DNA of 64,000 nt, taken from the NCBI GenBank assembly GCA_902629125.1, contig CACOPQ010000001.1, positions 124,001 through 188,000 of the forward strand, in the 5' to 3' direction. The position numbers were made by a program, and so were the translations under genes. Positions 247 through 49,263 of this stretch are shown here, piece after piece. Position 1 is the stretch's first letter, and every line of letters begins with the position of its first letter. The notes beneath the pieces were generated by a model. That model was not told where the DNA came from. It ran no database searches and saw only the letters and a list, made by a program, of their open reading frames with translations. This DNA comes from an uncultured Alphaproteobacteria bacterium (GTDB taxonomy: Bacteria > Pseudomonadota > Alphaproteobacteria > Thalassobaculales > Thalassobaculaceae).

Positions 247-1569
247 CTAATTAAAGTTTATTTTCCCTACAGCGCTTTTAAATTTCGCATAATCCCAAGA
301 ATCGTAACTTTCCAATGCTTCATAGGCTGTGTCCAAAGATGCCTGGATTTGCTCTGTCGACTTTTTCAAACCCATCTTTTCGGCTGCTGCCAGAACAGAT
401 GTTATTCCCATTATTGCTTGCTCAGCGCCTACATAATCAAAAAATTCCGCTTGTTTAGTTCTTTTTATCAGCTTCCGAAGTAGGTTTTCGACGTCATTCT
501 TACCGAATTTATAGTTAGAAAATACCGACACAAGTTTCTTGGCTTCATCTCGTAAAGATTGCGCCACCATATAAAACTCGTTTGAATTCGTCGTGCTGGC
601 TTTGTGTAGTTCTATAGTTTTCTCTTTTAAAGCTTTGCCTTTTCCGGCATCAATGCTTTCCAAAATGATTTGCAGCATGAGTAGGTTCGAGTCATCAAAC
701 CTTACCACGCCTGGGCCCAGCCCTGTTCCAGGCCGTGGCTGCCATTTTTGTGTCATCAATGAATGATGGCAAGCTTGGCAATCGAACAACACTAACTCGG
801 GAAAAATCCCACCTGTCTCCCCCATATTGAGCAGCGCCTCAAAACGTTTTTCAAGCGCTAATGCTTGACCAATTGCCCAAGTCTGCATTCCGTTAGATAC
901 TACTTTTCTCTCATAATAATCTTTATCGATTTCATAATGAGCCGGCTGAGTTGCTGTAAATGTGTCAAGTTCAAAATCTAGCCTTGGATGACCGGCACCC
1001 ATTATCCTATGGGTAACTATTTTTTTGTCATCACCAAAGTGGCAGGACAAGCACAGCTCTGCTCTTTTAATCGGATTTTCGGTTGGGTATAGACCAGCAT
1101 TGATATTATCCTGATGGGTTGCAACGCCAGATACATGAAGACCTAACCATCGTTCCCCTCCTCCATGGCAGGCCTCGCAACCTACACCATCCGAGATCTG
1201 AAAAACTCGTCCCCGATTTTTCTCAGCAACATTGTCTGCATGGCAATCTAGACAAATTTTCGCTTCATGAGCTTTTCCTATGCCTAAGTTCTTTGCCATC
1301 TGCTTTGACACGTCGTTCAACAAAACATTATAAGCCTTTGAGTGTGGATCATATCGGTCCCAGGTAATGTATTCATTCTGCAGAACCGTAGACCCCTTCC
1401 ATGGGCTTGTCGCACCATGACATGTGCTACCCGCGCATGAGGTGACGCCTAAATGTACATCGTCGCCATACTGCGGTAAAATGGTACCAGCGATTATTTG
1501 CGAGGGTACTAACGTAACTAGGAAAACACTGGCCGCAATTAAAAGGAAATTCCATTTTACTCTCAGCAT
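247..1569 (-). CDS. Exported pentahaem c-type cytochrome (cytochrome c554-like)
   Basis: The protein has 440 residues, with an N-terminal signal peptide or anchor (hydrophobic residues about 8-27) for export to the periplasm. Four standard haem-binding motifs are seen: CLDCH (106-110), CEACH (131-135), CLSCH (173-177) and CQACH (264-268). A fifth, wider motif CAGSTCH (45-51) has CX4CH spacing. The haem region is followed by a roughly 150-residue helical tail without cysteines. Layout and motifs recall multihaem cytochromes of the c554/hydroxylamine-oxidoreductase-related group, which shuttle electrons; no enzymatic activity can be assigned. It lies downstream of a small TPR membrane protein gene on the same strand and opposite the large redox operon, so it may be its periplasmic partner (inference). 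Confidence 0.8.
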   Translation of the reverse strand: MLRVKWNFLLIAASVFLVTLVPSQIIAGTILPQYGDDVHLGVTSCAGSTCHGATSPWKGSTVLQNEYITWDRYDPHSKAYNVLLNDVSKQMAKNLGIGKAHEAKICLDCHADNVAEKNRGRVFQISDGVGCEACHGGGERWLGLHVSGVATHQDNINAGLYPTENPIKRAELCLSCHFGDDKKIVTHRIMGAGHPRLDFELDTFTATQPAHYEIDKDYYERKVVSNGMQTWAIGQALALEKRFEALLNMGETGGIFPELVLFDCQACHHSLMTQKWQPRPGTGLGPGVVRFDDSNLLMLQIILESIDAGKGKALKEKTIELHKASTTNSNEFYMVAQSLRDEAKKLVSVFSNYKFGKNDVENLLRKLIKRTKQAEFFDYVGAEQAIMGITSVLAAAEKMGLKKSTEQIQASLDTAYEALESYDSWDYAKFKSAVGKINFN

Positions 1570-1607: not shown

Positions 1608-1931
1608 CTAATTACTAGAGGCATGTCCTCTCGCCCTTAAATCAATAAAAGCCCTTTGAATTTCTCTATCTCCAGGAAGCTCGCGCGATGCTGAAACATA
1701 GGCTGAAACCGCCTCTTTATAGAAGCCGGCTTCCTTATACAAGGCACCCAATAATTTTAGCGCACTGCCATCTTTCGGATTTGATCTAAGGTGCTCAATC
1801 GTCTCTTGGATCCTTTCCTGTATTTCAATCATGGAACGAGTATTATCCAAATCAGTTGTTTTTTGTTGCTGAAATAATACGCCTATTAAAGCAAAACCTA
1901 CTACAACTATACCTATGGCTGCGCAAAGCAA
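1608..1931 (-). CDS. Small membrane-anchored TPR protein
   Basis: At least 107 residues: one N-terminal transmembrane helix (roughly residues 3-21), then about two tetratricopeptide-like helical pairs (LKLLGALYKEAG and YKEAVSAYVSASRELPG). TPR modules with this anchor occur in cytochrome c maturation factors such as CcmI/CycH and in assembly proteins, which suits its place just upstream of a pentahaem cytochrome, but homology is not shown. The start is uncertain. The first common start codon is TTG at 1931, inside a positively charged stretch. The frame stays open further upstream, and a GGGAGAAG sequence precedes in-frame ATT codons at 1973/1976 that would add an RKR-containing cytoplasmic tail. 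Confidence 0.6.
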   Translation of the reverse strand: MLCAAIGIVVVGFALIGVLFQQQKTTDLDNTRSMIEIQERIQETIEHLRSNPKDGSALKLLGALYKEAGFYKEAVSAYVSASRELPGDREIQRAFIDLRARGHASSN

Positions 1932-2082: not shown

Positions 2083-2844
2083 ATGATAATGAGTGAAGAA
2101 ATTTTTTCGGTGTTACTAATTGTAAGCGCACCGTTTTTGGGAAGTTACGTATCAACAGTCATGATCAAGACTGAGCAGGAACAATCAATTTTAAATCCAG
2201 CGTTTTCTACTTGCTCCAATTGTGGTCATCAGATTTTGCTAATTCATAAAATCCCGATTCTAAGCTATATAATATTGAAAGGGGCCTGTTACCGCTGCAA
2301 AACGCCTATTAGCTGGACATACATAACGCTTGAGGCGGGATTTCTAATTTCCAGTATTTCAGCGATGTTAGCACTTTTTAATCAAACATTTGATAAAATA
2401 TTTTTTGCCATTATTTTAGCATGGACATTTTTACCGTTATCTATTTTTGATGTTCAAAAACAGCGCTTGCCTGATTTAGCTACTATACCGATAGCTTGTG
2501 CCGCTCTTCTACAAGGATACTTCCTACCCTACATAAACTTTATCGACTGTTTATTTGGCTTTATCCTTGGGTTTGTTTTGAGCGCAACAGTATCCATCGC
2601 GTATTCTAAAATACGCGGGCAAACTGGCCTCGGTTGGGGAGATGTCAAACTTATCGCCGCAGTTGGAGCATTAATCGGATGGCAATTTGTGCCCTGGTTT
2701 ATCTTCTTAGCTTCAATATCAGCGCTGATACATGTGATTTTGCAGATAATTATCCGCGGGAAGCAGGCTGGAAGAGAGAGGATACCTTTTGGTCCATTTT
2801 TATGCGGATCTAGCTGGCTTGTTTGGCTTTACTCAATCTTTTGA
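2083..2844 (+). CDS. pilD: Type 4 prepilin peptidase (A24 family)
   Basis: This 253-residue polytopic membrane protein has the layout of bifunctional type IV prepilin leader peptidases/N-methyltransferases. Near the N-terminus there is a four-cysteine zinc motif (CSNC ... CYRC, about residues 45-75). The two aspartates typical of the A24 aspartyl protease are in FDVQKQRLPD (about 126) and GWGDVKL (about 185). Members cut and methylate the leader of type IV pilins or type II secretion pseudopilins at the inner membrane. No pilin or secretion genes are visible nearby, so its substrate lies elsewhere. In-frame ATGs at 2083 and 2089 are both possible starts. Confidence 0.85.
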   Translation: MIMSEEIFSVLLIVSAPFLGSYVSTVMIKTEQEQSILNPAFSTCSNCGHQILLIHKIPILSYIILKGACYRCKTPISWTYITLEAGFLISSISAMLALFNQTFDKIFFAIILAWTFLPLSIFDVQKQRLPDLATIPIACAALLQGYFLPYINFIDCLFGFILGFVLSATVSIAYSKIRGQTGLGWGDVKLIAAVGALIGWQFVPWFIFLASISALIHVILQIIIRGKQAGRERIPFGPFLCGSSWLVWLYSIF

Positions 2845-2965: not shown

Positions 2966-5356
2966 ATGAGTGAAGAATTCGATATCGCCATTGTTGGCTC
3001 TGGCCCTTCCGGACTGAGTGCCGCGGCGCGGGCTGCACAAAAAGGGATATCTCACATTCTGCTTGAAACCACCGACCATGCCTCAGACACAATTTTTAAA
3101 TTTCAGAAACGCAAGTTCGTTATGGCGACACCAGATGTCATGCCTCTCCGAAGCGATACCAGCTTTGCTGCGGGCACAAGAGAAGAAATTCTCGATAAAT
3201 GGGACGAGGAAATAGAACAACAAAAAATAAACATTAGTTACAACAGCGAAGTAACAAGAATAAACGGTGAAAAAGGAAATTTTACATTAGAAGTAAAGGG
3301 TGGTGGCACGATAAAAGCCAGTCACGTTGTTCTTTCGATTGGCATGCAGGGTAATTTGCGAAAGCTAGACGTTGAAGGAGATGATTGGGACGGTGTTCAA
3401 TATCAACTAGATGACCCGGAAGAGTATGAGGATGAGACGATCATCGTTGTTGGAGCAGGCGACGCAGCAATAGAAAATGCGGTTGCACTTGCAGCACAAA
3501 ATCGAGTTGCTCTAGTAAATAGGAAGGGTGAGTTTGCCAGAATAAAAGCTGGAAACCTAACACTCATCACAGAGGCAATAGATAGCGGACTTTTGGAGTG
3601 CTATTACAATGCTAGTACAGCAAGAATTTCGCCCGGTGAAATAATATTAAAAACGCCTGATGGTGAGACAACGGTTCCCTGTGATCGAATTATTGCTCGT
3701 CTTGGCGCAATGGCGCCCCGCCGATTCGTTGAAAGTTGCGGCATAAAATTTACAAGTGACGAACCAAGTGCACTTCCTGAGTTATCGGAACGATACGAAA
3801 GTTCTGTGCCTGGTCTTTATGTCGTTGGCGCTTTAGCTGGTTACCCTCTAATTAAATTAGCCATGAACCAAGGTTACGAAGTGGTAGAAACAATCTCGGG
3901 AAATGAAATCCCGCCAGCAGATGAGCCACTATTAGAGGAGAAATTTGCAGCTCTTCGCGGTAAAAAAGTTAATGATGTTTTGAAAATGATCCAAGAAAAT
4001 GTCCCTCTTCTATCGCACATGTCAGCACTGCAATTTCGCGAATTCATGATAGATAGTGAAATCCACCTTAAACAAGCAGGAGACGTGATCTTCGAGAGAA
4101 ATGAATACACAAACAGCGTCTTTTCAATTGTTGAAGGACAGGTCAATGTGCAGATCAACCCCGAGGATGAAAATGAAGTTGTAGAGCTAAAGAAAGGCTC
4201 ATTTTTTGGTGAAATGGGCCTGATAGCAGGGCGACGCAGGACGGCAACCGTGGTTGCTAAACGGGAATGTTTCTTAGTTGAAACTCCTCGAAGAGCAATG
4301 CTTAAACTTATCAGCTCTGTGCCAGGTGCGAAGAAAGTTGTGGATACTGCAGCGATATACAGACAGATACAAACCCATTTGGCACCCAACATCGAAAAAG
4401 AGCTGCTTAAAGAAATCGTAGATTCAGCGACAATAGAAAGCTTGTCTGCCGGGGATAACCTCATATCGGAAGGCGATGAGTCAGATCATATGTTCATAAT
4501 TCGATCTGGCTCTATGACAGTATCAAAAATTATCGGCGGGAGAAGCGTTATATTATCCTACATCCCGTCGGGAAATTATGTTGGGGAGATGGCGTTATTA
4601 AATAGTGAGCCTCGTTCGGCTAGTGTGAAAGCAACGGTTGCTTCCGAGGTAATTAAAATCGATGCTGTGGCGTTCCGAGAATTATTAGACCGAGAGTCTG
4701 ACCTTAAACAAATTATAGAAGAAAAATTTCAAGACAGAATAGTCGAAAATTTAGAAACAGAGGAACGACCTGAGGCTGGTGACATTATTGATTTCTTAGT
4801 TGGCCAAGGTGTTGGCGAAGCATCCGATGTCTTGCTTATAGACGAGGCACTCTGTATACGATGCGATAATTGTGAAAAAGCTTGTGCCGAAACCCACGAC
4901 GGAATTTCACGGCTCAATCGGGAAGCCGGACCAACGTTCGAGACGTTGCATGTACCGACGTCGTGCAGACACTGTGAACACCCTCATTGTATGTCCGATT
5001 GCCCAGCCGACGCTATTCACCGAGCCCCGGACGGCGAGGTTTTCATAGATGACAAGTGTATTGGATGTGCAAACTGCGTCAATAACTGTCCCTACGGCGT
5101 TATACAACTAGCTTATCCACCAGCTAAAAAGCCTGGCCTGTGGTCTTGGCTCTTTTTTGGTGCTGGTCCAGGGCCTGGGGAGGATAAAACAAATAATAAA
5201 AAAGTTGAGGGCGCAAGATCAGTGGCTGCAAAGTGCGATATGTGCAAGGACATAGAGGGCGGCGCTTCATGTGTCAGTGCGTGTCCAACAGGAGCAGCCA
5301 TACGGGTTAATCCCGAGGAATTTTTATCAATTACCAATTTGGCAAAATCGGGTTAG
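2966..5356 (+). CDS. FAD/NAD(P) oxidoreductase fused to two cyclic-nucleotide-binding domains and a four-cluster ferredoxin
   Basis: The protein has 796 residues and no signal peptide, so it should be cytoplasmic. Domains in order: (a) a thioredoxin-reductase-like FAD/NAD(P) flavoprotein, about 1-315, with GSGPSG (11-16) and GAGDAA near 160; the CxxC redox pair of true thioredoxin reductases is absent. (b) A first cyclic-nucleotide-binding domain, about 350-460, with a phosphate-binding cassette FGEMGLIAGRRRTATV. (c) A second, about 470-590, with GEMALLNSEPRSASV. (d) From about 628, a DmsB/HybA-like module with four cysteine clusters: CIRCDNCEKAC, CRHCEHPHCMSDC, CIGCANCVNNC and CDMC...CVSAC. 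It probably moves electrons between NAD(P)H and the membrane cytochrome encoded 5 bases downstream, tuned by a cyclic nucleotide (inference). First gene of the operon. Confidence 0.85.
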   Translation: MSEEFDIAIVGSGPSGLSAAARAAQKGISHILLETTDHASDTIFKFQKRKFVMATPDVMPLRSDTSFAAGTREEILDKWDEEIEQQKINISYNSEVTRINGEKGNFTLEVKGGGTIKASHVVLSIGMQGNLRKLDVEGDDWDGVQYQLDDPEEYEDETIIVVGAGDAAIENAVALAAQNRVALVNRKGEFARIKAGNLTLITEAIDSGLLECYYNASTARISPGEIILKTPDGETTVPCDRIIARLGAMAPRRFVESCGIKFTSDEPSALPELSERYESSVPGLYVVGALAGYPLIKLAMNQGYEVVETISGNEIPPADEPLLEEKFAALRGKKVNDVLKMIQENVPLLSHMSALQFREFMIDSEIHLKQAGDVIFERNEYTNSVFSIVEGQVNVQINPEDENEVVELKKGSFFGEMGLIAGRRRTATVVAKRECFLVETPRRAMLKLISSVPGAKKVVDTAAIYRQIQTHLAPNIEKELLKEIVDSATIESLSAGDNLISEGDESDHMFIIRSGSMTVSKIIGGRSVILSYIPSGNYVGEMALLNSEPRSASVKATVASEVIKIDAVAFRELLDRESDLKQIIEEKFQDRIVENLETEERPEAGDIIDFLVGQGVGEASDVLLIDEALCIRCDNCEKACAETHDGISRLNREAGPTFETLHVPTSCRHCEHPHCMSDCPADAIHRAPDGEVFIDDKCIGCANCVNNCPYGVIQLAYPPAKKPGLWSWLFFGAGPGPGEDKTNNKKVEGARSVAAKCDMCKDIEGGASCVSACPTGAAIRVNPEEFLSITNLAKSG

Positions 5357-5361
5357 CCAAT

Positions 5362-6189
5362 ATGCATGAAGGTTTTTTAGTTTATGCCAATTCAAAGTAC
5401 CTGAAATGGTCAGTAGTCCTGTGCTTGGCCTCAATAGCGGCCTATATTTTTTATGAACCAATAGATGAACACAACGGCGGAACCGTTCTTGGGTATATAT
5501 TAGGAACAGTTGGTGCGCTGCTGATTTTTTGGCTGACTTGGTTAGGAATAAGAAAACGGCAATATGGCGCACATTTCAGGTTAACCGCTTGGGTGTCAGC
5601 CCACGTTTACCTAGGTTTAAGCTTAATTGTTGTAGCAACACTGCATACTGGTTTCCAATTTGACTGGAACCTGCATACGCTGGCCTATGTGCTTATGATT
5701 ATAGTAATAGTCAGTGGAATTTTTGGGATTTATGCTTATGCGAGGTTCCCGCGGCTTGTTACCGAAAACCGGCGCGGCGTCTCGATGGATGACTTACTTA
5801 CTCAAATTGGTGATTTAGATCGGGAGTGTAAGCAGTTAGCTGTTGGCTTACCTGATGAAGTTAGTTCGCTTATTTTAAAGTCATGCGAAGAAACTAGCAT
5901 TGGCGGATCAATTTTTCGGATTCTAAGTGGAAAGGCCAGTAATTGCCCGTCCGATGCGGCGTTTACTCAATTACGGAGCCTCGCGGGCACTGTGGACCAA
6001 GCTCACGCCCTGAGCACACGCAAATTACTTGTATTAATTGGCAAAAAATGTGGGTTACTCGGGACAGTAAGAAGGGACATTCAACTTAAGGCGTTAATGG
6101 ATATCTGGCTACGGGTACACGTACCTGTAACGATTGCACTCTTAGTCGCCCTGACAATTCATATAATATCTGTTTTCTATTATTGGTAA
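5362..6189 (+). CDS. b-type cytochrome-like integral membrane protein
   Basis: This 275-residue protein has about five hydrophobic segments: near residues 12-28, 35-58, 72-95, 103-128 and at the extreme C-terminus (VTIALLVALTIHIISVFYYW). Histidines in or beside the helices (HVYLGL, LHTGF, LHTLAY, then RVHVP and TIHIIS near the end) could ligate one or two b haems, as in cytochrome b561/ferric-reductase-type proteins. A soluble loop of about 100 residues separates the fourth and last helices. It begins 5 bases after the Fe-S flavoprotein and ends 10 bases before the FHA-decahaem gene, so it is well placed to carry electrons across the inner membrane. The family assignment is only approximate. 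Confidence 0.65.
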   Translation: MHEGFLVYANSKYLKWSVVLCLASIAAYIFYEPIDEHNGGTVLGYILGTVGALLIFWLTWLGIRKRQYGAHFRLTAWVSAHVYLGLSLIVVATLHTGFQFDWNLHTLAYVLMIIVIVSGIFGIYAYARFPRLVTENRRGVSMDDLLTQIGDLDRECKQLAVGLPDEVSSLILKSCEETSIGGSIFRILSGKASNCPSDAAFTQLRSLAGTVDQAHALSTRKLLVLIGKKCGLLGTVRRDIQLKALMDIWLRVHVPVTIALLVALTIHIISVFYYW

Positions 6190-6199
6190 GGTGAGGTAG

Positions 6200-7906
6200 A
6201 TGGAACTATCTATAACACGCCTTACTCGTCGAAAAAACGGAAGTATAGGGCGCAAAGAAGAAAGAAAAACATGCGAAACGTTGCGCGTGGGAAGAGATAC
6301 GAAAGACGAATTATTTCTTCCTGACCATAGAATACCTTATCATTTAGCCACTCTGCACCCAGGAGAAGATGGGTTCTTCATAGAAGCTGAGGGTGACAAC
6401 GACCTGAGGCTTAACGAAAAAATTATTCAAAGAGCTCGCGTAAACATAGGCGACACTATTGGGATTGGGCCATACGAACTCAGACTTGTTGCGCCCGAAG
6501 ATGGGATAGATCTGGCTTTAACCGTCGAATTAATTCATCCAGTAGGCGACGATGTTGAAGAATTATTATCCCGAAGTAACCTGAGTATAAATAACACAGG
6601 ATTTTCAAAGCGTACCTTATCGTGGACATTCGGGCTTTCGATTCTAGTGCTGTTTTTAGTTCTGCCTATCTTAGACGGAACCTACAATATTTTTAGATCT
6701 TCCGTATCCATAGAAAATACAGGGGATCAAGCCAATACAATGTTTACCAAAAACGAAGTTACATTCGACTTCAGTTGGCATACTGGCGAAGTTATGGATG
6801 CCCATAAGTTTTTTGCCAATGACTGCGAGGCGTGCCACACGAAGCCGTTTATAATGGTTGAGGACCAAGCATGCCTTTCTTGCCATCAAAAAACTCATGC
6901 GCACTTAGATGTGGCAAAGTTTACAAACCCAGATTTGAATTCTACCCGTTGCGCGTCATGTCATACAGATCATCAGGGCCCAGAGCCCTTAAGGGCGTCA
7001 CAACAAGCATTATGCTCAGATTGCCATACAAACCTTGAAGCAATGGCCGCGGGCACAAAGCTTATCAACGCTTCTGATTTTGGACTAAATCATCCGCAGT
7101 TTAAACCCACTGTATGGGTGGATGCTTCAGCTAACAAACGAGCGCGAATTAGTTTAGATAAAACACCAAAGGAAAATTCTAATTTGAAATTTCCGCATGA
7201 CGTTCATCTAATCGCAGAGCGGATGCGTAACCCAACCAAAGGGAAACAAGAACAATTAGATTGCGCTAGTTGCCATGTTCCAGATATGAGCAATCAATTC
7301 TTTAAACCTGTCCGCATGGAAGAGCACTGCGGGGATTGTCACGTGCTTTCGTTCGATCCAAATCAACCGGAACGGTTGGTTCCTCATGCTAGTGCCGCTA
7401 CAGTGCAACGAGAGGTCAAGGAATACTTCTCCGACCTAGCACTTAGTGGAAACGTCGACGAAAAGGCGGCGCCTACCAATTTGCGGAGAAGGCCAGGATC
7501 AAAATTAACAAAGACACAACGGCTCGAAGCTCTGGAATGGGCCGAAAAAAAGACAGAGCAAGCTACCAAATATCTTTTCTCCGCCAGTCAATGTGGCGTT
7601 TGCCACCAGTTACAACAGAAATCTGCTGAGACGCTGGAATATAAAGTGGATCCTGTAAGAGTAACTGATATTTGGCAACCTCTTTCCGTATTCAATCATG
7701 AGGCGCACGCCAATGCCTCTTGTGAAAGCTGTCACACTGCGGAGCGATCCTCCTCTAGCTCTGATGTTCTTTTACCAAAAATTGACAGCTGCCGGGATTG
7801 TCATGGTGGACAGCTAGCCTCCGACAAAATACCCAGCACATGCATAAGTTGTCATGTTTTTCACAATGATAAGCTTGCGTTGATGTTACCTACGACGGGA
7901 GAGTAA
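6200..7906 (+). CDS. FHA domain - transmembrane helix - decahaem cytochrome c fusion
   Basis: The protein has 568 residues. The first 115 or so look like a forkhead-associated (FHA) beta-sandwich (RVGRDTKDELFLPDHRI, then NDLRLNEKII). A single transmembrane helix follows at about 138-160, and then a periplasmic region with ten CxxCH haem sites, from CEACH (about 208) and CLSCH through CASCH, CSDCH, CASCH, CGDCH, CGVCH, CESCH and CRDCH to CISCH (about 547). FHA domains bind phosphothreonine, but the usual Ser of the S-x-x-H motif is not obvious here (IPYHLATL), so ligand binding is uncertain. The topology puts a signalling domain in the cytoplasm and a haem wire outside. A good ribosome site (AAGGTGAGG) precedes the ATG. 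Confidence 0.85.
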   Translation: MELSITRLTRRKNGSIGRKEERKTCETLRVGRDTKDELFLPDHRIPYHLATLHPGEDGFFIEAEGDNDLRLNEKIIQRARVNIGDTIGIGPYELRLVAPEDGIDLALTVELIHPVGDDVEELLSRSNLSINNTGFSKRTLSWTFGLSILVLFLVLPILDGTYNIFRSSVSIENTGDQANTMFTKNEVTFDFSWHTGEVMDAHKFFANDCEACHTKPFIMVEDQACLSCHQKTHAHLDVAKFTNPDLNSTRCASCHTDHQGPEPLRASQQALCSDCHTNLEAMAAGTKLINASDFGLNHPQFKPTVWVDASANKRARISLDKTPKENSNLKFPHDVHLIAERMRNPTKGKQEQLDCASCHVPDMSNQFFKPVRMEEHCGDCHVLSFDPNQPERLVPHASAATVQREVKEYFSDLALSGNVDEKAAPTNLRRRPGSKLTKTQRLEALEWAEKKTEQATKYLFSASQCGVCHQLQQKSAETLEYKVDPVRVTDIWQPLSVFNHEAHANASCESCHTAERSSSSSDVLLPKIDSCRDCHGGQLASDKIPSTCISCHVFHNDKLALMLPTTGE

Positions 7907-7911
7907 TAGGG

Positions 7912-8361
7912 ATGTTGAAAGTTACAAATATTATCGCATCAATTCTTTTCTTGGTCCTTTCTATAAGCGCCACCACGATCGGTGCCGCCTCTGAAAATCT
8001 GGAGCTTGTAACTTGGGGTTCTATTTTACCAAACGCAACAATTGATGCGCATCGTGCAAATTTAAACATACAGGTCGAACTTGGAGATGACGTTCCATTG
8101 AAAACCCATATAACCGCGCATACGCCGGCAGGAAATATACTACAACGAACCAACCTAGGATATTGGGTGCCATGGTCCGGCAAATTAAACGATTTGGTGG
8201 ACACATTTAGTCCAAAGACCAACAAGGCTATAAATTTTAAAATCTTCAAAGATGACGATTTGACCGAAGAGCTTTTCCCAATAAAGATTATGGTTGCATA
8301 TCGTACTGCAACAGAATTGAAATTTGGTGTTTTTGATTTAGCGGGCAGAAGAACACAATGA
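7912..8361 (+). CDS. Small exported protein of unknown function
   Basis: A 149-residue protein with a clear signal peptide (hydrophobic residues about 5-24, cleavage probably after TTIGAA). The mature part is about 120 residues, rich in beta-strand-forming residues, without cysteines or haem motifs. I do not recognise the family. It starts 5 bases after the decahaem gene, and its stop overlaps the next start by ATGA, so it is translationally coupled within the redox operon and probably works in the periplasm with its neighbours. Confidence 0.65.
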   Translation: MLKVTNIIASILFLVLSISATTIGAASENLELVTWGSILPNATIDAHRANLNIQVELGDDVPLKTHITAHTPAGNILQRTNLGYWVPWSGKLNDLVDTFSPKTNKAINFKIFKDDDLTEELFPIKIMVAYRTATELKFGVFDLAGRRTQ

Positions 8362-10316
8362 GAGCTCTTTTTTTAACAGTAAAGCACAGTTGCTTTCGCT
8401 TTCTAATACTCGCTGCAGCTACTGCAACCATTTCCTTATTACAAACAACTAATGCATGGGTTCAGGAGAGCCTATCGATAAGTGAAGTAAAACGCGTTTT
8501 GGCTCAAGCTATTCATGAAGCCCGCACTAGAGGCACTGGAGCCGCTATAGCGGTATCCGACAGGAGCGGCAACATTTTAGCCGTTTATAATATGATCGGT
8601 GCGAATAGACAATTTAATGCGGCGGGTGTTGACTGCACAGTTGGCTTAAGCAATATCCCCGTTGGATGCGTGGTCGTGACTTCTGATCCAAAACAGCCTA
8701 ACGGAGTACCTGGAAAAGGCGGACTAGAACGTCTGGATGTTCCAGGCCCTGTAGCAGCAATTGCAAAGGCAATAACAGGAGCTTATCTATCATCCAGCGG
8801 CAACGCTTTCACAACACGTACAGCAAGCCAAATCGTTCAAGAGCACTTCAATCCAAAGGAACGTTTTTCGCCTAGTGGCCCTCTTTTTGGTGTCCAGTTT
8901 AGCCAACTGCCATGTTCTGATTTGGTTATTGCCGAAAATAGCTCCGCTGTCACAATTGGTCCAAAACGCTCTCCGCTCGGACTAGCTGCCGATCCTGGTG
9001 GTATTCCTCTATATAAAAACAACCAGGTTGTTGGAGCAATTGGAGTAATATCGGACGGATTATATAGTCTTGACCCAAACATAGGTGATTTTGATAATGA
9101 CCTAGACGAATTAATTGCTCTCGCGGGCACTGTTGGTTTCGAGGCTCCAATAGATATTAGGGGTAATCGTATTACCGTAGAAGGAAAAACTTTTCGTTTC
9201 ACCGACAGAGGTTATCGCGCACTGAGATCTCAAGCTTCAGAGGCTGTTCCTTTTGACCAGCTAGATAGATCCGTCGGCGGGCTTACCGAAATAGGAACCT
9301 ACTTTGCCGGAACTATAAGACGCGGCACAGCTTTTGGAACACCCGCGTCCGGGTATAGAGCAAATACAACCGGAGAATACGGCCCGCTAAATGCATTCAT
9401 TCTCGTAGATGGCAATAACCAACCGAGGTTCTCTCCAAGAGATGGAACTGAAGGAACGCCAGAAGCGCTGACGGCTAACGAAGTTAGAACGATTATCCGA
9501 AATGCACTTACAATTGCGTTTAGGGCACGCGCCCAAATTAGGCGTCCTTTAGGAGACCACGCACACGTCACGGTATCGGTGGTTGATACTAATGGTGCTA
9601 TAGTCGGGTTAGCGCGAACACCAGATGGACCCGTTTTTGGCACCGATGTATCTTTACAAAAAGCACGAACAGCCGCTTTTTTTTCTAATCGCAATGCGGG
9701 TAATGAATTAATAGCTGGAAATTTGGGGAACTATGTATTGCAGGCAAGGTCAGTTTTGGGCCCAACTGCACTGAGCGACGGTATCGCGTTTGCAGATCGA
9801 TCAGGCGGAAACCTGTCAAGACCCTATTTGCCAGATGGTGTAATCAATGCGCCACCCGGACCTTTCAGCAAACCTATTGCGGAATGGAGTATTTTCAATA
9901 CTGGATTGCAGCTGGATTTAGTAGCCGCGAATTTAGTGGCGCACCGCTCTTTCCTTCTCGGGCTTTCAAGCATGGATACGGCGTCAGGTTGTACATCACT
10001 CCCATTAAGACCCGAAACAGCAAAGTCAAGAATACCAAACGGAATACAAATCTTTCCTGGTAGCGTTCCAATTTATCGTAACAATGTTTTAGTTGGCGGA
10101 CTTGGCGTTTCAGGGGATGGTATAGATCAGGATGATATGATTTCCCTACTGGGATTACACAATGCTGGATTGGAGTTAGGAACTGGTATTGGTAATGCCC
10201 CCCGTGGTATCCGCGCAGACCTTCTTTTCGCAAATGGAACACGTCTCAGATATGTAAGTTGTCCATTTGCGCCATTTTTAGACTCAGCTGATCAAACGCC
10301 ATGTTCAGGAAAATGA
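8358..10316 (+). CDS. Exported protein with two HbpS/GlcG-like (DUF336-type) domains
   Basis: The protein has 652 residues with an N-terminal signal peptide (about 1-34). Two copies of an HbpS/GlcG-like fold are suggested. The first begins near residue 38 (SEVKRVLAQAIHEAR, then AAIAVSDRSGNILAVY). The second begins near residue 370 (ANEVRTIIRNALTIAF, then VTVSVVDTNGAIVGLAR). Each ends in a glycine-rich VGAIGVISDG or VGGLGVSGDG segment. HbpS proteins bind haem and relatives occur in exported redox sensors; haem binding here is inferred only. Several cysteines (such as VDCTVGLS and IPVGCV) occur but no CxxCH. Coupled by ATGA overlaps to both neighbours. Confidence 0.7.
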   Translation: MRALFLTVKHSCFRFLILAAATATISLLQTTNAWVQESLSISEVKRVLAQAIHEARTRGTGAAIAVSDRSGNILAVYNMIGANRQFNAAGVDCTVGLSNIPVGCVVVTSDPKQPNGVPGKGGLERLDVPGPVAAIAKAITGAYLSSSGNAFTTRTASQIVQEHFNPKERFSPSGPLFGVQFSQLPCSDLVIAENSSAVTIGPKRSPLGLAADPGGIPLYKNNQVVGAIGVISDGLYSLDPNIGDFDNDLDELIALAGTVGFEAPIDIRGNRITVEGKTFRFTDRGYRALRSQASEAVPFDQLDRSVGGLTEIGTYFAGTIRRGTAFGTPASGYRANTTGEYGPLNAFILVDGNNQPRFSPRDGTEGTPEALTANEVRTIIRNALTIAFRARAQIRRPLGDHAHVTVSVVDTNGAIVGLARTPDGPVFGTDVSLQKARTAAFFSNRNAGNELIAGNLGNYVLQARSVLGPTALSDGIAFADRSGGNLSRPYLPDGVINAPPGPFSKPIAEWSIFNTGLQLDLVAANLVAHRSFLLGLSSMDTASGCTSLPLRPETAKSRIPNGIQIFPGSVPIYRNNVLVGGLGVSGDGIDQDDMISLLGLHNAGLELGTGIGNAPRGIRADLLFANGTRLRYVSCPFAPFLDSADQTPCSGK

Positions 10317-12103
10317 TTTTTAAAGATACCAAAAAACTAATGTTGCCAGTTGCGACGGCAACGGCCTTGCTGTTTACAATAACAAGTGTTGGTCTTTACA
10401 CAGATTTAGCGCAAGCACTTGAAAGAAAAAGACCAGGATCTTCTACACATATCAAAAAGGAAAAGCTAAAGCCATTACCATCAGCGATTAAAAAACGGCC
10501 GCCAGTTCTAAAACGCGACGACCCGTCAAATTTCTTGCCCGTACCAGATCGTTGGCGGATCATGGAAAGTATTGGTGTAAAAGAAAGCATAGTCGACCCG
10601 TACAACAGAAACCCCCTTAAGGGGGATAGGCCGCTCTTTGGTAAGGATTGGTTTTTTAACTTAGCGGTCATCTCTGACACAGTGTTTGAACCTAGAAGTT
10701 TTCCAGTGCCAGTCGGTGTGCAAGCCACCCGTGATGCAAATGACGTTGATCTTTTTGGTGGGGCCGATAGCTGGGTTTTTAATGAAAACTTAATTGTTAG
10801 CCTCTCACTAATAAAAGGTGATACCGCGTTTAAACCGCCCGATTATGAGTTTCGCTTAACTCCCGTTTTCAACTTTAATCATGTCGAAGTGGAAGAAGTA
10901 AGAGTTCTAAAAGCTGACCCGAGGTTGGGAACAGAACGTTCTGATAGACATATCGCGTTGCAGGAGGCCTTTGTTGATTACCATATTCGTAATGTTTCAG
11001 ATCGCTACGATTTTGATTCAATCCGTATTGGCATTCAGCCTTTTTCGTCAGACTTCAGAGGATTTTTATTTCAAGATAGCCAATTAGGAGTAAGACTTTT
11101 TGGCGACCGGGACAACAATATTTTTCAATATAATTTAGCGTGGTTCAGGCGTCTCGAAAAAGATTCGAATAGTCTTTTAAACCATATTAATAGAAAAATT
11201 AGAGACGATGATATCTTTATCGCAAACCTTTACTGGCAAGACTTTCCTGTATTGGGTTTTCAAAGTCAGGTAACTGCTGTTTATAATCGGAATACCGAAG
11301 GCGGTGATTTCTATTTTAATGACAACGAATTTATTGAAAGGCCTGCATCTTTTGGAAGTGAGCGCGGTCGTAACTACGATGTAGGCTATCTTGGATTTAA
11401 TGGCGATGGCCATTTTGGCCGACTAAATTTAACAACCTCATTCTACACGGCAATAGGAACTAATCGCGAAAGCGCATTCAGTGACGAAACCGCGAATATT
11501 AGATCCTTTTTCTTTGCGGCCGAGCCGGGAATTGATTTTGACTGGATCCGACTTCGCGGCTCGTTAGTTTACGCAAGCGGCGACAGCGACCCTTTTGATA
11601 ATACGGAAACGGGTTTTGATGCGATTTTTGAAAACCCACAAATTGCCGGATCGGATACGAACTTTTGGATAAGACAAACTATCCCTTTAATCGGTGGAGG
11701 CGGTATAGTTACTACTGCAAGAAATGCAATGCTTCCTGCTCTTCGAACTTCCAAAGAGCATGGACAATCCAATTTTAATAACCCTGGCCTGCGTTTGGTC
11801 GGTGTTGGGGCTGATTTTGATATTCTCCCAGAATTGCGCGTTTCTACTAATGTAAATTATATGGAATTTGATGATACGTCTGTGCTTGAAGTCGCACGCA
11901 ACCAACAAGAAATCGCGCAGGAAATTGGCTTAGACGTCTCAGTTGCGGCAATATACCGGCCTTTCTTTACTCAAAACGTTGTCTTTAGATTGTCTGGTGC
12001 AGCTCTAATTCCAGGGGCTGGCTTCACAGACTTGTATGGTGAACAACGCGATCAAGATGATGCGTTTTTTTCCGTTCAAGCAAACCTCATTCTTACATAT
12101 TAG
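10313..12103 (+). CDS. Porin-like outer-membrane beta-barrel protein of the redox operon
   Basis: About 596 residues starting at the ATG that overlaps the previous stop (ATGA, AGGA upstream); an ATG at 10301 is an alternative. A signal peptide is followed by a basic, proline-rich linker (about 35-75). The rest is alternating hydrophobic/polar strands with aromatic girdle residues and acidic turns, ending ANLILTY with a terminal aromatic, as outer-membrane barrels do. No cysteine or haem motif was seen. By size and position beside an exported decahaem cytochrome it could be the barrel sheath of a porin-cytochrome conduit (an MtrB-like role), but it may be a plain channel. No recognisable specific family. 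Confidence 0.65.
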   Translation: MIFKDTKKLMLPVATATALLFTITSVGLYTDLAQALERKRPGSSTHIKKEKLKPLPSAIKKRPPVLKRDDPSNFLPVPDRWRIMESIGVKESIVDPYNRNPLKGDRPLFGKDWFFNLAVISDTVFEPRSFPVPVGVQATRDANDVDLFGGADSWVFNENLIVSLSLIKGDTAFKPPDYEFRLTPVFNFNHVEVEEVRVLKADPRLGTERSDRHIALQEAFVDYHIRNVSDRYDFDSIRIGIQPFSSDFRGFLFQDSQLGVRLFGDRDNNIFQYNLAWFRRLEKDSNSLLNHINRKIRDDDIFIANLYWQDFPVLGFQSQVTAVYNRNTEGGDFYFNDNEFIERPASFGSERGRNYDVGYLGFNGDGHFGRLNLTTSFYTAIGTNRESAFSDETANIRSFFFAAEPGIDFDWIRLRGSLVYASGDSDPFDNTETGFDAIFENPQIAGSDTNFWIRQTIPLIGGGGIVTTARNAMLPALRTSKEHGQSNFNNPGLRLVGVGADFDILPELRVSTNVNYMEFDDTSVLEVARNQQEIAQEIGLDVSVAAIYRPFFTQNVVFRLSGAALIPGAGFTDLYGEQRDQDDAFFSVQANLILTY

Positions 12104-12112
12104 GCAAGGCTG

Positions 12113-15100
12113 TTGATTTATTTACGTTACATATTTTTAGTTATCAGTTTAGTCCTTTTGGGAGCTACACATAGCTTTGCGGCCTCAGGTGAAAAACCAC
12201 GGGATATCACCTATGTAACAACACCCCCTGCTCCAAAGTGGCAACCAGTTGAGCAAATCAATATAAAAAGCCAAGGCTGCATTAGTTGCCATACAACAAC
12301 GGACGAACCTAGTATGCATCGCACCGGTGGCGTGCCTTTGGGTTGCACAGACTGTCACGGCGGCAACTCATCAATTGTGAAACCTGCCTCAGGGGCACCA
12401 TCCAAGAAAGCATACCGCAAGGCAATGGACCAAGCCCACGTTCAACCGAGATATCCGGAGACTTGGAATTATCCGAGCAGTGCAAACCCCGTGGCTTCAT
12501 ACACATTATTAAATAAAGAAAGTCCAGAATATGTCCGTTTTGTGAACCCTAGTGATTATAGGATAGTAGAAGAGGCTTGCGGTTCGTGCCATGCCGGAGC
12601 GATCCGAGCCGCAAAGAACAGTCTCATGGCAACGGGCGCAATGCTTTGGGGTGGTGCCGCTTATAACAATGGTATTTTGCCGTTCAAAAACTATATTCTA
12701 GGTGAAGGATACACGAGGGATGGAACAGGAGCGTTACTGAAAAACCCTACACCGGTTACAGAGGAGATGAAGGCTGCTGGTATTTTAGAATCACTTGCAC
12801 CTATGCCGGCTTGGGAAACAATTCCTCCTGGAGATATTTTTAGGGTCTTCGAAAGAGGGGGCAGAAACATCCTTAATCTATTTCCCGAAATCGGGTTGCC
12901 AAATTCGCTCGGCCAAATACAACGTTTAGAGGAACCTGGAAGACCGGATCTAAAACAGTCAAACCGAGGCCCCGGCACAGGACTTCGAATTTCGGTTCCA
13001 GTTATCAATATTACAAAAACGCGTTTGAATGATCCCTTTACATGGTTCCTCGGCACTAACGAGCAGCCTGGTGACTATCGGTCTTCAGGGTGCGCTGCTT
13101 GCCACGTGGTCTATGCAAATGACAGAGACCCTAGGCATTCGGGTCCATATGCAAAATTTGGACATACTGGCATGAGCCAGACGAGCGACCCAACAATACC
13201 AAAAGGAGAAGAAGGTCACCCTCTGAAACATGAATTCACAAGCGCCATTCCAACAAGTCAATGTATGATTTGTCATATGCATCAGCCTAATATTTTTGTT
13301 AATTCTTTTCTTGGTTACACGATGTGGGATTATGAGTCGGATGCCCCGCATATGTGGCCTAAAGAACAGCGCTACCCAAGCAACGCCGAAATGCATGAAA
13401 TTCTTGAGAGAAATCCTGAAGGGGCAGCAGTTCGCGGCCTTTGGTCAGATCCTGAATTTTTGAAAGAGGTATCAAAACTCAATCCTAAGTTAGAAAACAC
13501 TCAATTTGCCGACTACCACGGCCATGGCTGGAATTTCCGTGCCATCTTTAAGAAGGATGAGGCTGGAAATTTATTGGACAAGGACGGCAATATTGTATCA
13601 CATGAAGATCCTGAAAAGTTTGAAAAAGCTGTACATATGTCGTCGATACATCTTGACGCAGGAATGCATTGTGTAGATTGCCACTTTGAACAAGACACGC
13701 ATGGGAATGGCCACCTTTATGGTGAGGTGGCCAGCGCAATTGAGATAACATGCCAGGACTGTCACGGCACCGCTGACGAATACCCTACACTTTTAACTTC
13801 GGGTCCTGCCGCACCTGAAGGAGGTAATGACGTCGGTGTCACAAGGAATTCAGACGGATCAAAGCGCTTTGAGTGGAGAGACGGAGTGCTTTATCAGCGA
13901 TCGGCGCTTTGGCCTGGATTAGAGTGGGAAGTTTCATTGGTCAAGGATAGCGTCAATCCAAGTCACAAAGATTATAACGCTAAATCGGCACGCGCAAAAC
14001 TTATGAAAGCCGATCCTAACAATATGGATTGGGGTCTGAAAGTCCCCTCTGATAAGCGAGCACACAAACCAGATGAAATGGAATGTTTTACTTGTCATCT
14101 TTCATGGACAACAAGCTGTGGTGGATGCCATCTACCAATTGAGGCCAACTGGAAAACAGAGCGACATCATTATGAAGGTGGAGAAACCCGAAATTATGCA
14201 ACATACAACCCACAAGTCGCACGTGACCAGATGTTTCAATTAGGGATCCACAGCACTGCAAAAGGCAATACAATTGCACCAATACGCTCAACATCGGCTT
14301 TAGTACTGTCCTCAACAAATATTAATCGCGAGAAACTATATATACAACAACCGCCGATAGCATCTAGTGGTTATTCTAGCCAAGCATTCGCGCCTCACTT
14401 CGCGCACACGGTTAGGAAAGAAGAGACTAAAAATTGTTCCGACTGCCATCTATCCGCTGCAAATGACAATAATGCAAGAATGGCTCAACTCCTATTGCAT
14501 GGTACAAATTTTGTAAATTTTGTTGGTTACAATGCTTGGATAGGTGGTGAAGGCGGAGTTGAGGCAGTACAGGTAACTGAATGGGATGAGCCGCAAGCTG
14601 TAATCGGGAGCTATTTACAAAAATATGCCTATCCAGATTGGTATGATGAGCATCAAAAGCGGGATAAGGAACTGCAGATAAGCCGTACGCACAACGCAGA
14701 TGGCGCTGTTAATTGTGTGACGTTACGAGGTGAATACCTGTTTACGGCAAGTGGAGCCGAAGGCTTTCATGTCTTTGATGTGGCGTCGATATCCAACAAA
14801 GGATTTAGTCAGCGTGTAATAACGGCACCATTCTCTCCTCTAGGTCATGATACCAGAGTTGAATCAAAAAATGCCACCTGTATGGCGCTCCCAACGAATC
14901 AAGCCATCGATCCCGAGCGAAACACGGGCGACTTAATGAGGAAAGTAAACCAAGAGCAACCATTCCACCCCATTTACAATTACGCATTTGTAACGGACTC
15001 AGAAGAGGGTCTTATTGTTGTGAATGTAAATACGCTAGCCGACGGCCTCCCCCGTAATAACTTTTTAAAGCGAGCATTGACCTGGAATCCAGATAATATT

Positions 15101-15859
15101 CTAACGGGCGCGCGGCATATTACTATGGCAGGCCATATTGTTTATATCACAACCCCGACTTCTCTCGTCGTTCTAGACCTTAATGATCCGCTAAAACCTG
15201 AGGTTGTTCAGACAATAGAAATGCAAGATCCAAGAGCCTCAGCGCTTCAGTTCCGTTATTTGTTCGTTACTGATGCTGAGGGTTTAAAGGTGTTTGACAC
15301 AACCCAACCAAAAAATATCAAAGCTGTTAAGGGCGCTCATGTCGCTCTTAGGGATCCCAAAAAACTTTACGTGGCACGCACGTACGCTTACGTGGCTGGA
15401 GGGAATGAGGGCCTTGCGATTATAAACGTAAAAAATCCGGAGCGACCAAGACTCTATAAACTCTTCAACGCTAACGGAGAGATAAATGATGCAAGAGATG
15501 TCATTGTAGGCACAACTAACGCGTCGCTTTTTGCATATGTAGCAGATGGAAAAAATGGATTGAAAGTTATTCAACTAACCTCCCCTGACTCACAGCCTCG
15601 TTTTTACGGATACAGTCCTGAACCAAAACCAGAATTGATTGCTTGGAAAAAAACCAAATATCCTGCTCTCGCCTTATCAAAAGGATTAGATAGAGATCGA
15701 GGCGTTGATGAAACCGGCGGCCAGATTGCAGTATTCGGACGACTTGGATCACGGCCATTTAACGTAAATGAAATGAAAAAACTCTATCTTGATCCATATG
15801 GGAAGCCCTATTATGTGAGCGACGAAGTGGATCAAAAAATGGCAGAGCAAATCAAATAA
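12113..15859 (+). CDS. Exported decahaem cytochrome c with C-terminal LVIVD repeats
   Basis: The protein has 1248 residues and begins at a TTG with AAGG just upstream; a signal peptide covers about 1-23 (cleavage near SFAA). Ten CxxCH haem sites are seen between about residues 55 and 775: CISCH, CTDCH, CGSCH, CAACH, CMICH, CVDCH, CQDCH, CFTCH, CGGCH and CSDCH. Residues about 860-1190 hold repeated LVIVD-type blades (EGFHVFDV, EGLIVVNV, SLVVLDL, EGLKVFDT, EGLAIINV, NGLKVIQL), a beta-propeller associated with surface proteins. It is the last gene of the operon, 9 bases after the porin-like gene. It may be a periplasmic or surface-exposed terminal cytochrome; its partner or substrate is unknown. 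The stop is followed by a 49-base gap and a convergent gene. Confidence 0.85.
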   Translation: MIYLRYIFLVISLVLLGATHSFAASGEKPRDITYVTTPPAPKWQPVEQINIKSQGCISCHTTTDEPSMHRTGGVPLGCTDCHGGNSSIVKPASGAPSKKAYRKAMDQAHVQPRYPETWNYPSSANPVASYTLLNKESPEYVRFVNPSDYRIVEEACGSCHAGAIRAAKNSLMATGAMLWGGAAYNNGILPFKNYILGEGYTRDGTGALLKNPTPVTEEMKAAGILESLAPMPAWETIPPGDIFRVFERGGRNILNLFPEIGLPNSLGQIQRLEEPGRPDLKQSNRGPGTGLRISVPVINITKTRLNDPFTWFLGTNEQPGDYRSSGCAACHVVYANDRDPRHSGPYAKFGHTGMSQTSDPTIPKGEEGHPLKHEFTSAIPTSQCMICHMHQPNIFVNSFLGYTMWDYESDAPHMWPKEQRYPSNAEMHEILERNPEGAAVRGLWSDPEFLKEVSKLNPKLENTQFADYHGHGWNFRAIFKKDEAGNLLDKDGNIVSHEDPEKFEKAVHMSSIHLDAGMHCVDCHFEQDTHGNGHLYGEVASAIEITCQDCHGTADEYPTLLTSGPAAPEGGNDVGVTRNSDGSKRFEWRDGVLYQRSALWPGLEWEVSLVKDSVNPSHKDYNAKSARAKLMKADPNNMDWGLKVPSDKRAHKPDEMECFTCHLSWTTSCGGCHLPIEANWKTERHHYEGGETRNYATYNPQVARDQMFQLGIHSTAKGNTIAPIRSTSALVLSSTNINREKLYIQQPPIASSGYSSQAFAPHFAHTVRKEETKNCSDCHLSAANDNNARMAQLLLHGTNFVNFVGYNAWIGGEGGVEAVQVTEWDEPQAVIGSYLQKYAYPDWYDEHQKRDKELQISRTHNADGAVNCVTLRGEYLFTASGAEGFHVFDVASISNKGFSQRVITAPFSPLGHDTRVESKNATCMALPTNQAIDPERNTGDLMRKVNQEQPFHPIYNYAFVTDSEEGLIVVNVNTLADGLPRNNFLKRALTWNPDNILTGARHITMAGHIVYITTPTSLVVLDLNDPLKPEVVQTIEMQDPRASALQFRYLFVTDAEGLKVFDTTQPKNIKAVKGAHVALRDPKKLYVARTYAYVAGGNEGLAIINVKNPERPRLYKLFNANGEINDARDVIVGTTNASLFAYVADGKNGLKVIQLTSPDSQPRFYGYSPEPKPELIAWKKTKYPALALSKGLDRDRGVDETGGQIAVFGRLGSRPFNVNEMKKLYLDPYGKPYYVSDEVDQKMAEQIK

Positions 15860-15908
15860 AAACTACTAAACTTACAAGTACAAAGCTTTGATATATATAA
15901 CTTGAGGT

Positions 15909-17516
15909 TTAAGCAAAAAAGAATTCTGCGTAATTATTTGCCTCAACTTTTTGAAGGACTTCTCTGTATTTAACGGCTCCGCCATTATAAGCCAAAACTC
16001 TTGGTTTATCTCTGCCCGGCACATTGCTGTTTACGCCTGTTTGCCAAGAGCCGACGCCACTCATCAAGAGACCTTCCGATGCTTTTTTCACTTGGGCCTC
16101 CCACTTGTCTACAGAACTTGATTTGGGTTCCACTCTCGTAAATCCATTCCTTAATGTATAGTCCAAAAGATTGGTTTGCCAATCTACCACTTCTTCGATA
16201 TTTCTCGGTATATTCCCTCGCGACGTATGCGGCCCTAAAATCATAAACATATTTGGAAAACCTTCGGCCTGCATGCCAAACAAGGTTCTTGGAAAATCAC
16301 TCCAATCATCTTTTAGGCAACGACCAGCTGACGTTCGGATATCAATTCTATCATAAGGTCCCGTTACCCCGTCAAAACCGGTTGCGTAAATAATAAGGTC
16401 AAATTCATACAATTTATCAGACGTTTTTATACCGTTTTCTGTTATGTGCGTGATAGGTGTTTCGTTGAGATCTACCAGCAAAACGTTTTCCTGATTATAA
16501 ACCTCGTAGTAACCACTTTCCAAAGGCAGTCTTCGTGTTCCAAATCCATGATTCTTTGGCGTGAGCAATTTTGCAATTTTAGGATCTTTTACGCGTTCAC
16601 GAATTTTTTTTGCGGCGAACTCTGTCATTAATTTATTAGCGTGCTCATCAACTAAGATGTCTTTGAGATTGCCAATCCAAATCCCAAATCCCGGCTCTTT
16701 ATAGAGTTGTTCCCAGAATGCTTCTCTCTCATCCGGCGTCAAATCAGTCGTGCTTCTGGGATCCGGGTCGTGAATAAAACATGCAATCGTTTTTCTACAT
16801 TGCTCAAAAATTTTTTCAAAGTCTTGCTTGATTTGTTTCTGTTCGTCTTCGGTAATTACACTATTATTAAGAGGCGCGGCCCAATTTGGACTACGCTGAA
16901 AAACCGTGAGGTGCGCGACATCCTGCGCAATAGTTTGTATTGTTTGAATTGCACAGGCACCCGTCCCTATAATTCCAACCCGCTTCCCTGAAAAATCTAC
17001 CTCCTCGTGAGGCCATCTCGCGGTGTGATATGCTGGTCCTTTAAAAGTCTCTCTACCTTCAATGTTTGGCAGAGTAAATGCCGATAACGGCCCTAATGCT
17101 GTAATCAAGAAACGTGCCACATATTCTTCTTCCGTGTTTGTCCTTACAGTCCACAAATTATTCTCTTGATCAAAAACGGATGCCTCAACTCTTCTGTCGA
17201 ACTTAATGTCTCGTCGCAGATCGAACTTATCTGCCACGTAATTAAGATACCTTAACGTATCAGGTTGTGCCGCAAAATGTTCTGGCCAATCCCATTCCTC
17301 AAAGAGTTCCTTGGAGAAAGAATACCCGTAAGACCAACTCTCTGAGTCAAATCGGGCACCTGGGTAGCGATTCCAATACCATGTGCCGCCAACATTATCG
17401 CCCGCTTCGATTACTAGCGCTTGTAGCTTAAGCTGTCGCAACTTGAAAAGTTGATAGAGGCCCGCAACACCGGCTCCTATCACAATCACATCATACTGAG
17501 AATTATTTTCAGACAC
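15909..17516 (-). CDS. Flavin-dependent monooxygenase, Baeyer-Villiger type
   Basis: About 535 residues. The N-terminal FAD site is GAGVAGLYQL, followed by the GGTWYWNRYPGAR segment typical of cyclohexanone-monooxygenase-like enzymes. The Baeyer-Villiger fingerprint is FKGPAYHTARWP (about 175), followed by the NADPH site GIIGTGACAIQ and FQRSPNW. Such enzymes use NADPH and O2 to turn ketones into esters or lactones, or to oxidise heteroatoms, in the cytosol; the substrate cannot be told. A GTG at 17516 with GAGAG upstream seems the best start; a TTG at 17531 is possible. It stands alone on its strand at the edge of the catabolic region. Confidence 0.85.
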   Translation of the reverse strand: MSENNSQYDVIVIGAGVAGLYQLFKLRQLKLQALVIEAGDNVGGTWYWNRYPGARFDSESWSYGYSFSKELFEEWDWPEHFAAQPDTLRYLNYVADKFDLRRDIKFDRRVEASVFDQENNLWTVRTNTEEEYVARFLITALGPLSAFTLPNIEGRETFKGPAYHTARWPHEEVDFSGKRVGIIGTGACAIQTIQTIAQDVAHLTVFQRSPNWAAPLNNSVITEDEQKQIKQDFEKIFEQCRKTIACFIHDPDPRSTTDLTPDEREAFWEQLYKEPGFGIWIGNLKDILVDEHANKLMTEFAAKKIRERVKDPKIAKLLTPKNHGFGTRRLPLESGYYEVYNQENVLLVDLNETPITHITENGIKTSDKLYEFDLIIYATGFDGVTGPYDRIDIRTSAGRCLKDDWSDFPRTLFGMQAEGFPNMFMILGPHTSRGNIPRNIEEVVDWQTNLLDYTLRNGFTRVEPKSSSVDKWEAQVKKASEGLLMSGVGSWQTGVNSNVPGRDKPRVLAYNGGAVKYREVLQKVEANNYAEFFFA

Positions 17517-18858: not shown

Positions 18859-18878
18859 TCTTTAGAAACGGCCCAACA

Positions 18879-49241: not shown

Positions 49242-49263
49242 CCTACTGTTGGTTTTTGCCAAC

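Follow-up and report, generated by a model that had tools for sequence, protein, structure and literature searches.

A conserved PCC4-related cytochrome operon with cyclic-nucleotide-binding domains and a predicted electron route across both membranes

A tightly packed run of seven genes that combines multihaem cytochromes with signal-type domains raises the question of whether electrons are led through the whole cell envelope, in which direction they would flow and what would control them. The operon (g1 to g7, forward strand, positions 2966-15859) lies in a 64,000-nucleotide stretch of contig CACOPQ010000001.1, here called the window, from a metagenome-assembled genome (MAG) that is 68% complete. 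The original prediction described a regulated trans-envelope electron route with at least 20 c haems. A check of the open reading frames placed all seven genes at the predicted positions and on the predicted strand, and the packing was as tight as claimed (gaps of 5, 10, 5, -4, -16 and 9 bases), except that one of the supposed ATGA overlaps is 16 bases long. The haem count also held, with ten CXXCH motifs in g3 and ten in g7, and rises to 24 c haems for the set when a nearby four-haem cytochrome gene is included. The predicted route and its cyclic-nucleotide module find good support in the conserved haem ligands, the synteny, the natural fusion of g1 with g2 and the linkage to cyclase genes; the proposed signalling through an FHA domain does not. 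Extracellular electron transfer by this operon is likely, and the reading favoured here, at a probability of roughly 0.6, is that electrons would be exported from NAD(P)H across both membranes to an external acceptor through g7.

Conservation of the gene set

A scan of contigs from a species-level genome collection identified at least 589 stretches that encode relatives of g1, and many of these stretches come from marine, soil and freshwater lineages in which metal respiration is not known. The conserved gene set is found in hundreds of bacteria, most of them oxygen-using. A total of 79 loci taken from the scan matches were compared for gene order. The order g1-g2-g3-(g4)-g5-g6-g7 is recurrent in the Alphaproteobacteria and the Lysobacterales, and g1 is relocated downstream of g7 in the Betaproteobacteria, so that the synteny called for by the original prediction was found across the Alpha-, Beta- and Gammaproteobacteria. 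The small exported protein g4 (149 amino acids, 7912-8361), which gave no family match in domain or family profile searches, was found in alphaproteobacterial loci only and in none of the beta- or gammaproteobacterial loci. Some sphingomonads (a label based on likeness of arrangement to named Sphingobium and Sphingopyxis records) carry the two operon halves at separate chromosomal places with both halves present (L140/L141 and L142/L143), and the operon is also located on large replicons of cultured Sphingobium. The operon is not peculiar to one MAG.

The inner and outer genes also occur together. Within a phylum-wide set of 398 genomes, g7 was present in 11 and g3 in 15, and all 11 genomes with g7 contained g3 (hypergeometric P = 1.6e-18, ignoring relatedness). 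Among 289 alphaproteobacterial genomes, g2 was present in 27 and g7 in 20, and all 20 contained g2. The pattern spans many families, and these counts likewise ignore relatedness.

The haem motifs are also conserved. The ten CXXCH motifs of g3 (6200-7906; a degenerate FHA-like domain, one transmembrane helix and a periplasmic decahaem domain) and the ten of g7 were kept in every aligned relative, compared with means of 0.04 and 0.01 CXXCH motifs in shuffled controls of the two cytochromes. Besides the CXXCH motifs, g7 has 14 further invariant His residues and g3 has exactly 10; ten distal His for ten haems are as expected of a pure electron carrier. A c554-type gene for an exported four-haem cytochrome (247-1569, reverse strand; PF13435, E = 4e-10), a probable periplasmic shuttle, had been missed by the original prediction, together with a neighbouring TPR gene and the type II secretion genes upstream. 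Homologues of the c554-type gene, always with four CXXCH motifs, are located between g7 and g1 in the Betaproteobacteria, in front of g5 in sphingomonads and inside loci of the type known as PCC4, and judged by this synteny the gene is the eighth member of the system. A second four-haem gene and a second g1 copy, on the opposite strand from the first, were observed in a Burkholderiales MAG (L093:18388-22248).

Predicted electron entry and its probable control

The first protein, g1 (2966-5356), combines an NAD(P)H-FAD oxidoreductase domain (PF13738) with two cyclic-nucleotide-binding (CNB) domains (PF00027 twice) and an Fe-S domain (PF13247, over the cut-off), and its gene directly precedes g2. 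An alignment of relatives contains 16 conserved cluster Cys residues, corresponding to four [4Fe-4S] clusters. The flavin domain is nearest to NADPH enzymes of the YpdA and thioredoxin reductase types, and the aligned relatives contain no second-Cys or CxxC disulfide site of the kind found in these two enzymes; position 15, the place of the Cys in YpdA, is occupied by Ser, Ala or Gly. Since it has no conserved reactive Cys, the flavin domain is more likely to feed the Fe-S clusters of g1 itself than to reduce disulfides. The alignment further retains the GxGxxG and GxGDA motifs and an NRxxEFAR segment similar to the motif by which thioredoxin reductases bind NADPH. A gene for NADP-specific glutamate dehydrogenase adjoins the operon in nine loci of gammaproteobacterial, betaproteobacterial and sphingomonad carriers (L053, L070, L071, L087, L143, L144, L146, L147 and L154), and both neighbours tested (2/2) exceeded the NCBIfam cut-off for this enzyme. 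The electron donor of g1 is probably NADPH.

The second protein, g2 (5362-6189), is a five-helix membrane protein with two putative haem-b sites and the motifs of the IMP protein of PCC3 and PCC4 (W77-x3-H81-x13-H95, SGxxG at position 118 and W249-x3-H253-x13-H267). Both Wx3Hx13H motifs were found in 20 of 21 aligned g2 sequences, the remaining one being truncated, and SGxxG in all 21. The two HX13H pairs, predicted on transmembrane helices 3 and 5, would ligate the haems b, and He et al. pointed out that NOX/FRD proteins bind their haems b through such pairs (PMC5566968). The domain search gave no match to the ferric-reductase family PF01794 and only a match just below the cut-off to PF01292, and a g2 profile found no relative among PDB sequences. 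Two genomes encode g1 and g2 naturally fused in one polypeptide of about 1120 amino acids (L137:4849-8205 and L138:3052-6423), which is strong evidence that the two proteins act jointly. Beside this fusion, the g3 homologue of both loci has one haem site of the form CX4CH instead of CXXCH. The operon thus shares with NOX/FRD proteins an FAD and NAD(P)H domain that would feed two haems b, in L137 and L138 even within one chain, but differs from them in its thioredoxin-reductase/YpdA-like flavin domain, in the four Fe-S clusters and CNB domains in between, and in a chain of c haems as the acceptor.

Each CNB cassette of g1 contains a Glu and, nine residues later, an Arg (E416/R425 and E541/R550) that are invariant in 21 sequences, and CHASE2- or GAF-type class III cyclases adjoin several operon loci. 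Because cyclases are common, the linkage was tested against genome-wide counts of class III cyclases. Of the operon genomes tested, five have exactly one class III cyclase (G145, G410, G453, G272 and G425), and in all five this gene is located 1-20 kb from an operon segment, where the expected chance of a cyclase within 20 kb is about 1-3% per genome; four of the five belong to one family and are not fully independent. Three genomes with three cyclases (G358, G317 and G433) were also linked, and no linkage was found in G185, G406 and G650. Mere chance as the explanation of the cyclase neighbours was tested by these counts, which give strong linkage where cyclases are rare and none where they are many. 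A metallophosphatase akin to the cyclic-nucleotide phosphodiesterases SpdA and CpdA, with scores below the cut-offs, adjoins g3 in sphingomonads. Overall, the conserved cassettes and the linkage suggest that a cyclic nucleotide bound to the CNB domains probably controls electron entry.

Domain searches of each gene bore out the domain labels of the original prediction, the weak one being the FHA domain of g3 (PF16697, E = 3.7e-5, below the cut-off). Its G31-R32 pair is kept, but the Ser position is occupied by Pro, Ala or Leu and the next Arg position almost always by Leu, so that the Ser-Arg contact pair of the SRxH motif is lost. Phosphothreonine signalling through this domain was dropped as unlikely, since the contact residues are not conserved, and the domain is probably structural.

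The outer module and its relation to PCC4

The outer half of the operon encodes an exported protein of the HbpS/GlcG type in which the HbpS domain is repeated (g5, 8358-10316; PF03928, 80.5 bits against a cut-off of 25), a predicted outer-membrane beta-barrel (g6, 10301-12103) and a predicted secreted decahaem protein with a C-terminal LVIVD beta-propeller (g7, 12113-15859). Proteins of the HbpS family bind haem as well as small ligands. A simple pattern picked out lipobox-like signals in 22 of the 68 g5 relatives, and many relatives in Beta- and Gammaproteobacteria and sphingomonads have a lipoprotein signal. The domain search gave no Pfam match for g6, and its AlphaFold2 model (mean pLDDT 66) is an 18-strand barrel for which the nearest PDB structure found by Foldseek is AlgE, not the larger MtrB type. 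The Foldseek matches of the g7 propeller are generic propellers, a g7 profile search against PDB sequences found nothing, and most relatives of g7 have no lipobox. Across the Alpha-, Beta- and Gammaproteobacteria g7 shares 61-82% identity, and in most of the distant comparisons no other protein of the set is as well conserved (about 63-70% for the relatives in Betaproteobacteria, Gammaproteobacteria and sphingomonads, versus 33-39% for g3). This high conservation suggests that g7 faces a specific partner or substrate; Shewanella surface-cytochrome clades share <35% identity (PMC7096707). The outer module is also carried on large plasmids in a dozen Sphingobium strains, and on one plasmid (pMSHV of Sphingobium herbicidovorans, L153:1515-9668) a two-partner-secretion transporter and an unclassified protein of 2092 amino acids are located ahead of the four-haem gene.

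Genes of a type II secretion system (T2SS) adjoin the operon in the family of the window, in Ferrovibrio, in L078 (a secretin gene) and in the Betaproteobacteria. A complete-looking cluster (GspE, F, G, pseudopilins, L, M and D) is located directly upstream of the window (L155, G000:C1:104001-124000, at 10149-19079), and the prepilin peptidase gene of the same system (GspO-like, 2083-2844, forward strand; PF01478/PF06750) lies inside the window. In Shewanella the T2SS exports MtrC and OmcA (PMC7096707), and by this analogy the T2SS probably delivers g7, perhaps along with g5, to the cell surface. Between GspD and the four-haem gene, a protein of about 380 amino acids and of no known family was observed across the family of the window (L155:19084-20000 and L158:11990-13132), with distant matches in Ferrovibrio (L050 and L057) and in L078.

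The comparison with known systems separates the two halves of the operon. PCC4, a putative complex predicted from the genomes of iron oxidisers in 2017, was defined by a porin, cytochromes with four, five and ten haems and an IMP of five helices that contains SGxxG on its fourth transmembrane helix and a pair of Wx3Hx13H motifs. In Subgroup II an Fe-S gene of family PF13247 precedes the IMP gene, and the complex was reported to lack an extracellular cytochrome; cyclic nucleotides are absent from the main text of that paper (He et al. 2017, PMC5566968). The operon shares with PCC4 a homologous CNB/Fe-S protein, the IMP with the same motifs and the ten-haem and four-haem cytochromes, but the pentahaem cytochrome and porin of PCC4 are replaced by the HbpS-like g5, the barrel g6 and the LVIVD decahaem protein g7. 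Loci with the full PCC4 gene content were recovered (L060, L073, L079, L098, L181 and L182), with recognisable homologues of g1 and g2, and the arrangement in L178 and L179 is like that of the Hyphomicrobium subgroup; the identification of these loci as PCC4 is based on gene content, haem numbers and motifs. They also carry CNB domains, which are thus not unique to the operon, a correction to the original prediction. No homologue of the five-haem cytochrome was found in the 68% complete genome of the window, no profile similarity was detected between g6 and the porin of PCC4-type loci (hhalign probability 0.2%), and a search for hidden homology between g7 and the PCC4-type pentahaem cytochrome turned up no more than a match of 22 columns that contains no haem sites. 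PCC4 is also defined by the lack of an extracellular multihaem cytochrome; g7, which is predicted to be exported and whose gene is linked to a T2SS, would be such a cytochrome if it is located at the surface. One genome (G571) has both outer modules with a single g2, the PCC4-type pentahaem/porin pair (G571:C2, which is L180) and the g7 module (G571:C5:554914-565236). Judged from its genes, the operon joins an inner half of PCC4 type to a distinct outer module, and the whole is by definition not a member of PCC4. A literature search for CNB, FHA, LVIVD or HbpS domains combined with multihaem cytochromes found no account of the operon or of its outer module.

With MtrCAB, MtoAB and PioAB the operon has in common the predicted crossing of the outer membrane by a barrel and multihaem cytochromes and, as in Shewanella (PMC7096707), a likely T2SS-dependent surface cytochrome. 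It differs in its input, which consists of NAD(P)H, Fe-S clusters and cytochrome b instead of the quinol dehydrogenase CymA, and in its 18-strand AlgE-like barrel, so that the MtrCAB picture drawn in the original prediction does not transfer directly. Matches of the operon proteins to the MtrA, MtrB and MtrC families were all below threshold (PF22113, E = 0.0023). A distant match of g7 to ExtM of the Geobacter ext system (NCBIfam NF040943, 76.2 bits) is far under the cut-off of 800 bits, and the ext gene content is different.

Of the remaining genes near the operon, the TPR gene (1608-1931, reverse strand; N-terminal membrane helix, weak NrfG match) encodes a possible haem-lyase helper of the NrfG/CcmI kind that may assist haem attachment; a TPR protein near a Sphingobium operon matches TPR_CcmH_CycH over the cut-off. 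A permuted tmRNA gene with the tag ANDNYAEARLAA, in alphaproteobacterial style, is located at 49237-49563 of the window (forward strand).

Direction of electron flow and rival explanations

In the export route favoured here, g1 would oxidise NAD(P)H, probably NADPH, and pass the electrons by way of FAD to its four [4Fe-4S] clusters, and g2 would carry them through the inner membrane over two haems b. The ten bis-His periplasmic haems of g3, anchored by one helix, would take them from g2, the c554-type protein would shuttle them to the outer membrane, and g6 and g7 would hand them over to an acceptor outside the cell. The adjacent T2SS would probably deliver g7, perhaps with g5, to the surface, and a cyclic nucleotide on the CNB domains of g1 would be the probable gate. 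Electron flow from NADPH to the outside is downhill and runs with the membrane potential, which favours the outward direction. Several points weigh against this export reading. The choice of NADPH over NADH is a guess, as is the kind of cyclic nucleotide; cyclase-rich operon genomes show no linkage between cyclase and operon, and in the host MAG no cyclase is located near the operon. An 18-strand AlgE-like barrel as modelled might not be wide enough to enclose a cytochrome in the way MtrB holds MtrA, and the AlphaFold2 model of g7 is usable for the propeller alone (pLDDT mostly <50 in the haem part), which bears on the continuity of the haem chain. In addition, He et al. (2017) assumed the opposite, inward direction for PCC4 (PMC5566968).

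That inward conduit, in which g7 would take electrons from extracellular Fe(II) or Mn(II) and g2 would feed the quinone pool or NAD(P)+, in line with the proposal of He et al. on PCC3 and PCC4, draws on the homology of the inner half to PCC4, known from iron oxidisers and drinking-water-filter bacteria (PMC5566968), and on the reversibility of which haem conduits are capable. It is judged unlikely all the same: electrons at the potential of these metals would have to move uphill to FAD and NADP+ and against the membrane potential, most carriers (SAR116-like bacteria, Lysobacterales, Sphingobium) are not known as iron oxidisers, and the conservation of g7 is unusually high for a cytochrome that faces minerals. 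The likeness of g6 to the exporter AlgE instead of MtrB, the ligand binding of the HbpS family and the missing lipobox of most g7 relatives would fit a system without external discharge, in which NADPH electrons would serve, within the periplasm or on the inner side of the outer membrane, to repair or reduce proteins, metals or haem; g5 would be the partner that handles haem or metal, and g6 a substrate channel. The linkage to T2SS genes in several lineages points instead to an exported protein, and the exchange with the pentahaem/porin pair of PCC4 to a terminus at the outer membrane, which makes a purely periplasmic role rather improbable. A system that serves mainly as a redox or ligand sensor, whose CNB and FHA domains would inform the cell of the haem chain's redox state and in which little net flux would occur, would account for the CNB domains and for the nearby cyclase and phosphodiesterase-like genes. 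Such a sensor is very improbable given the degenerate FHA site, the lack of a kinase, DNA-binding or cyclase output domain within the operon and the excess of 24 c haems and two b haems.

Within the export reading, the operon might be a two-membrane counterpart of NADPH oxidases, gated by a cyclic nucleotide and spending NADPH in aerobes on one specific surface reduction, with g7 as a dedicated extracellular reductase and not a general mineral-facing wire; this more specific proposal is speculative. The enzymes behind the extracellular superoxide of marine bacteria are not fully accounted for (PMC6414704), and the reduction of O2 to superoxide is for this reason among the candidate reactions. 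A metal and a secreted redox enzyme are the other candidate acceptors, and none of the three is favoured over the others.

Research on extracellular electron transfer has dealt for the most part with anaerobic metal respirers and with iron oxidisers. The operon represents a related machine that has intact cyclic-nucleotide domains and a predicted NAD(P)H entry of its own, in lineages that are not known for metal respiration, and its comparison with PCC4 presents the inner and outer halves as exchangeable modules. If the export reading is true, the operon would provide a genetic identity and a tractable host for a signal-controlled surface reductase.

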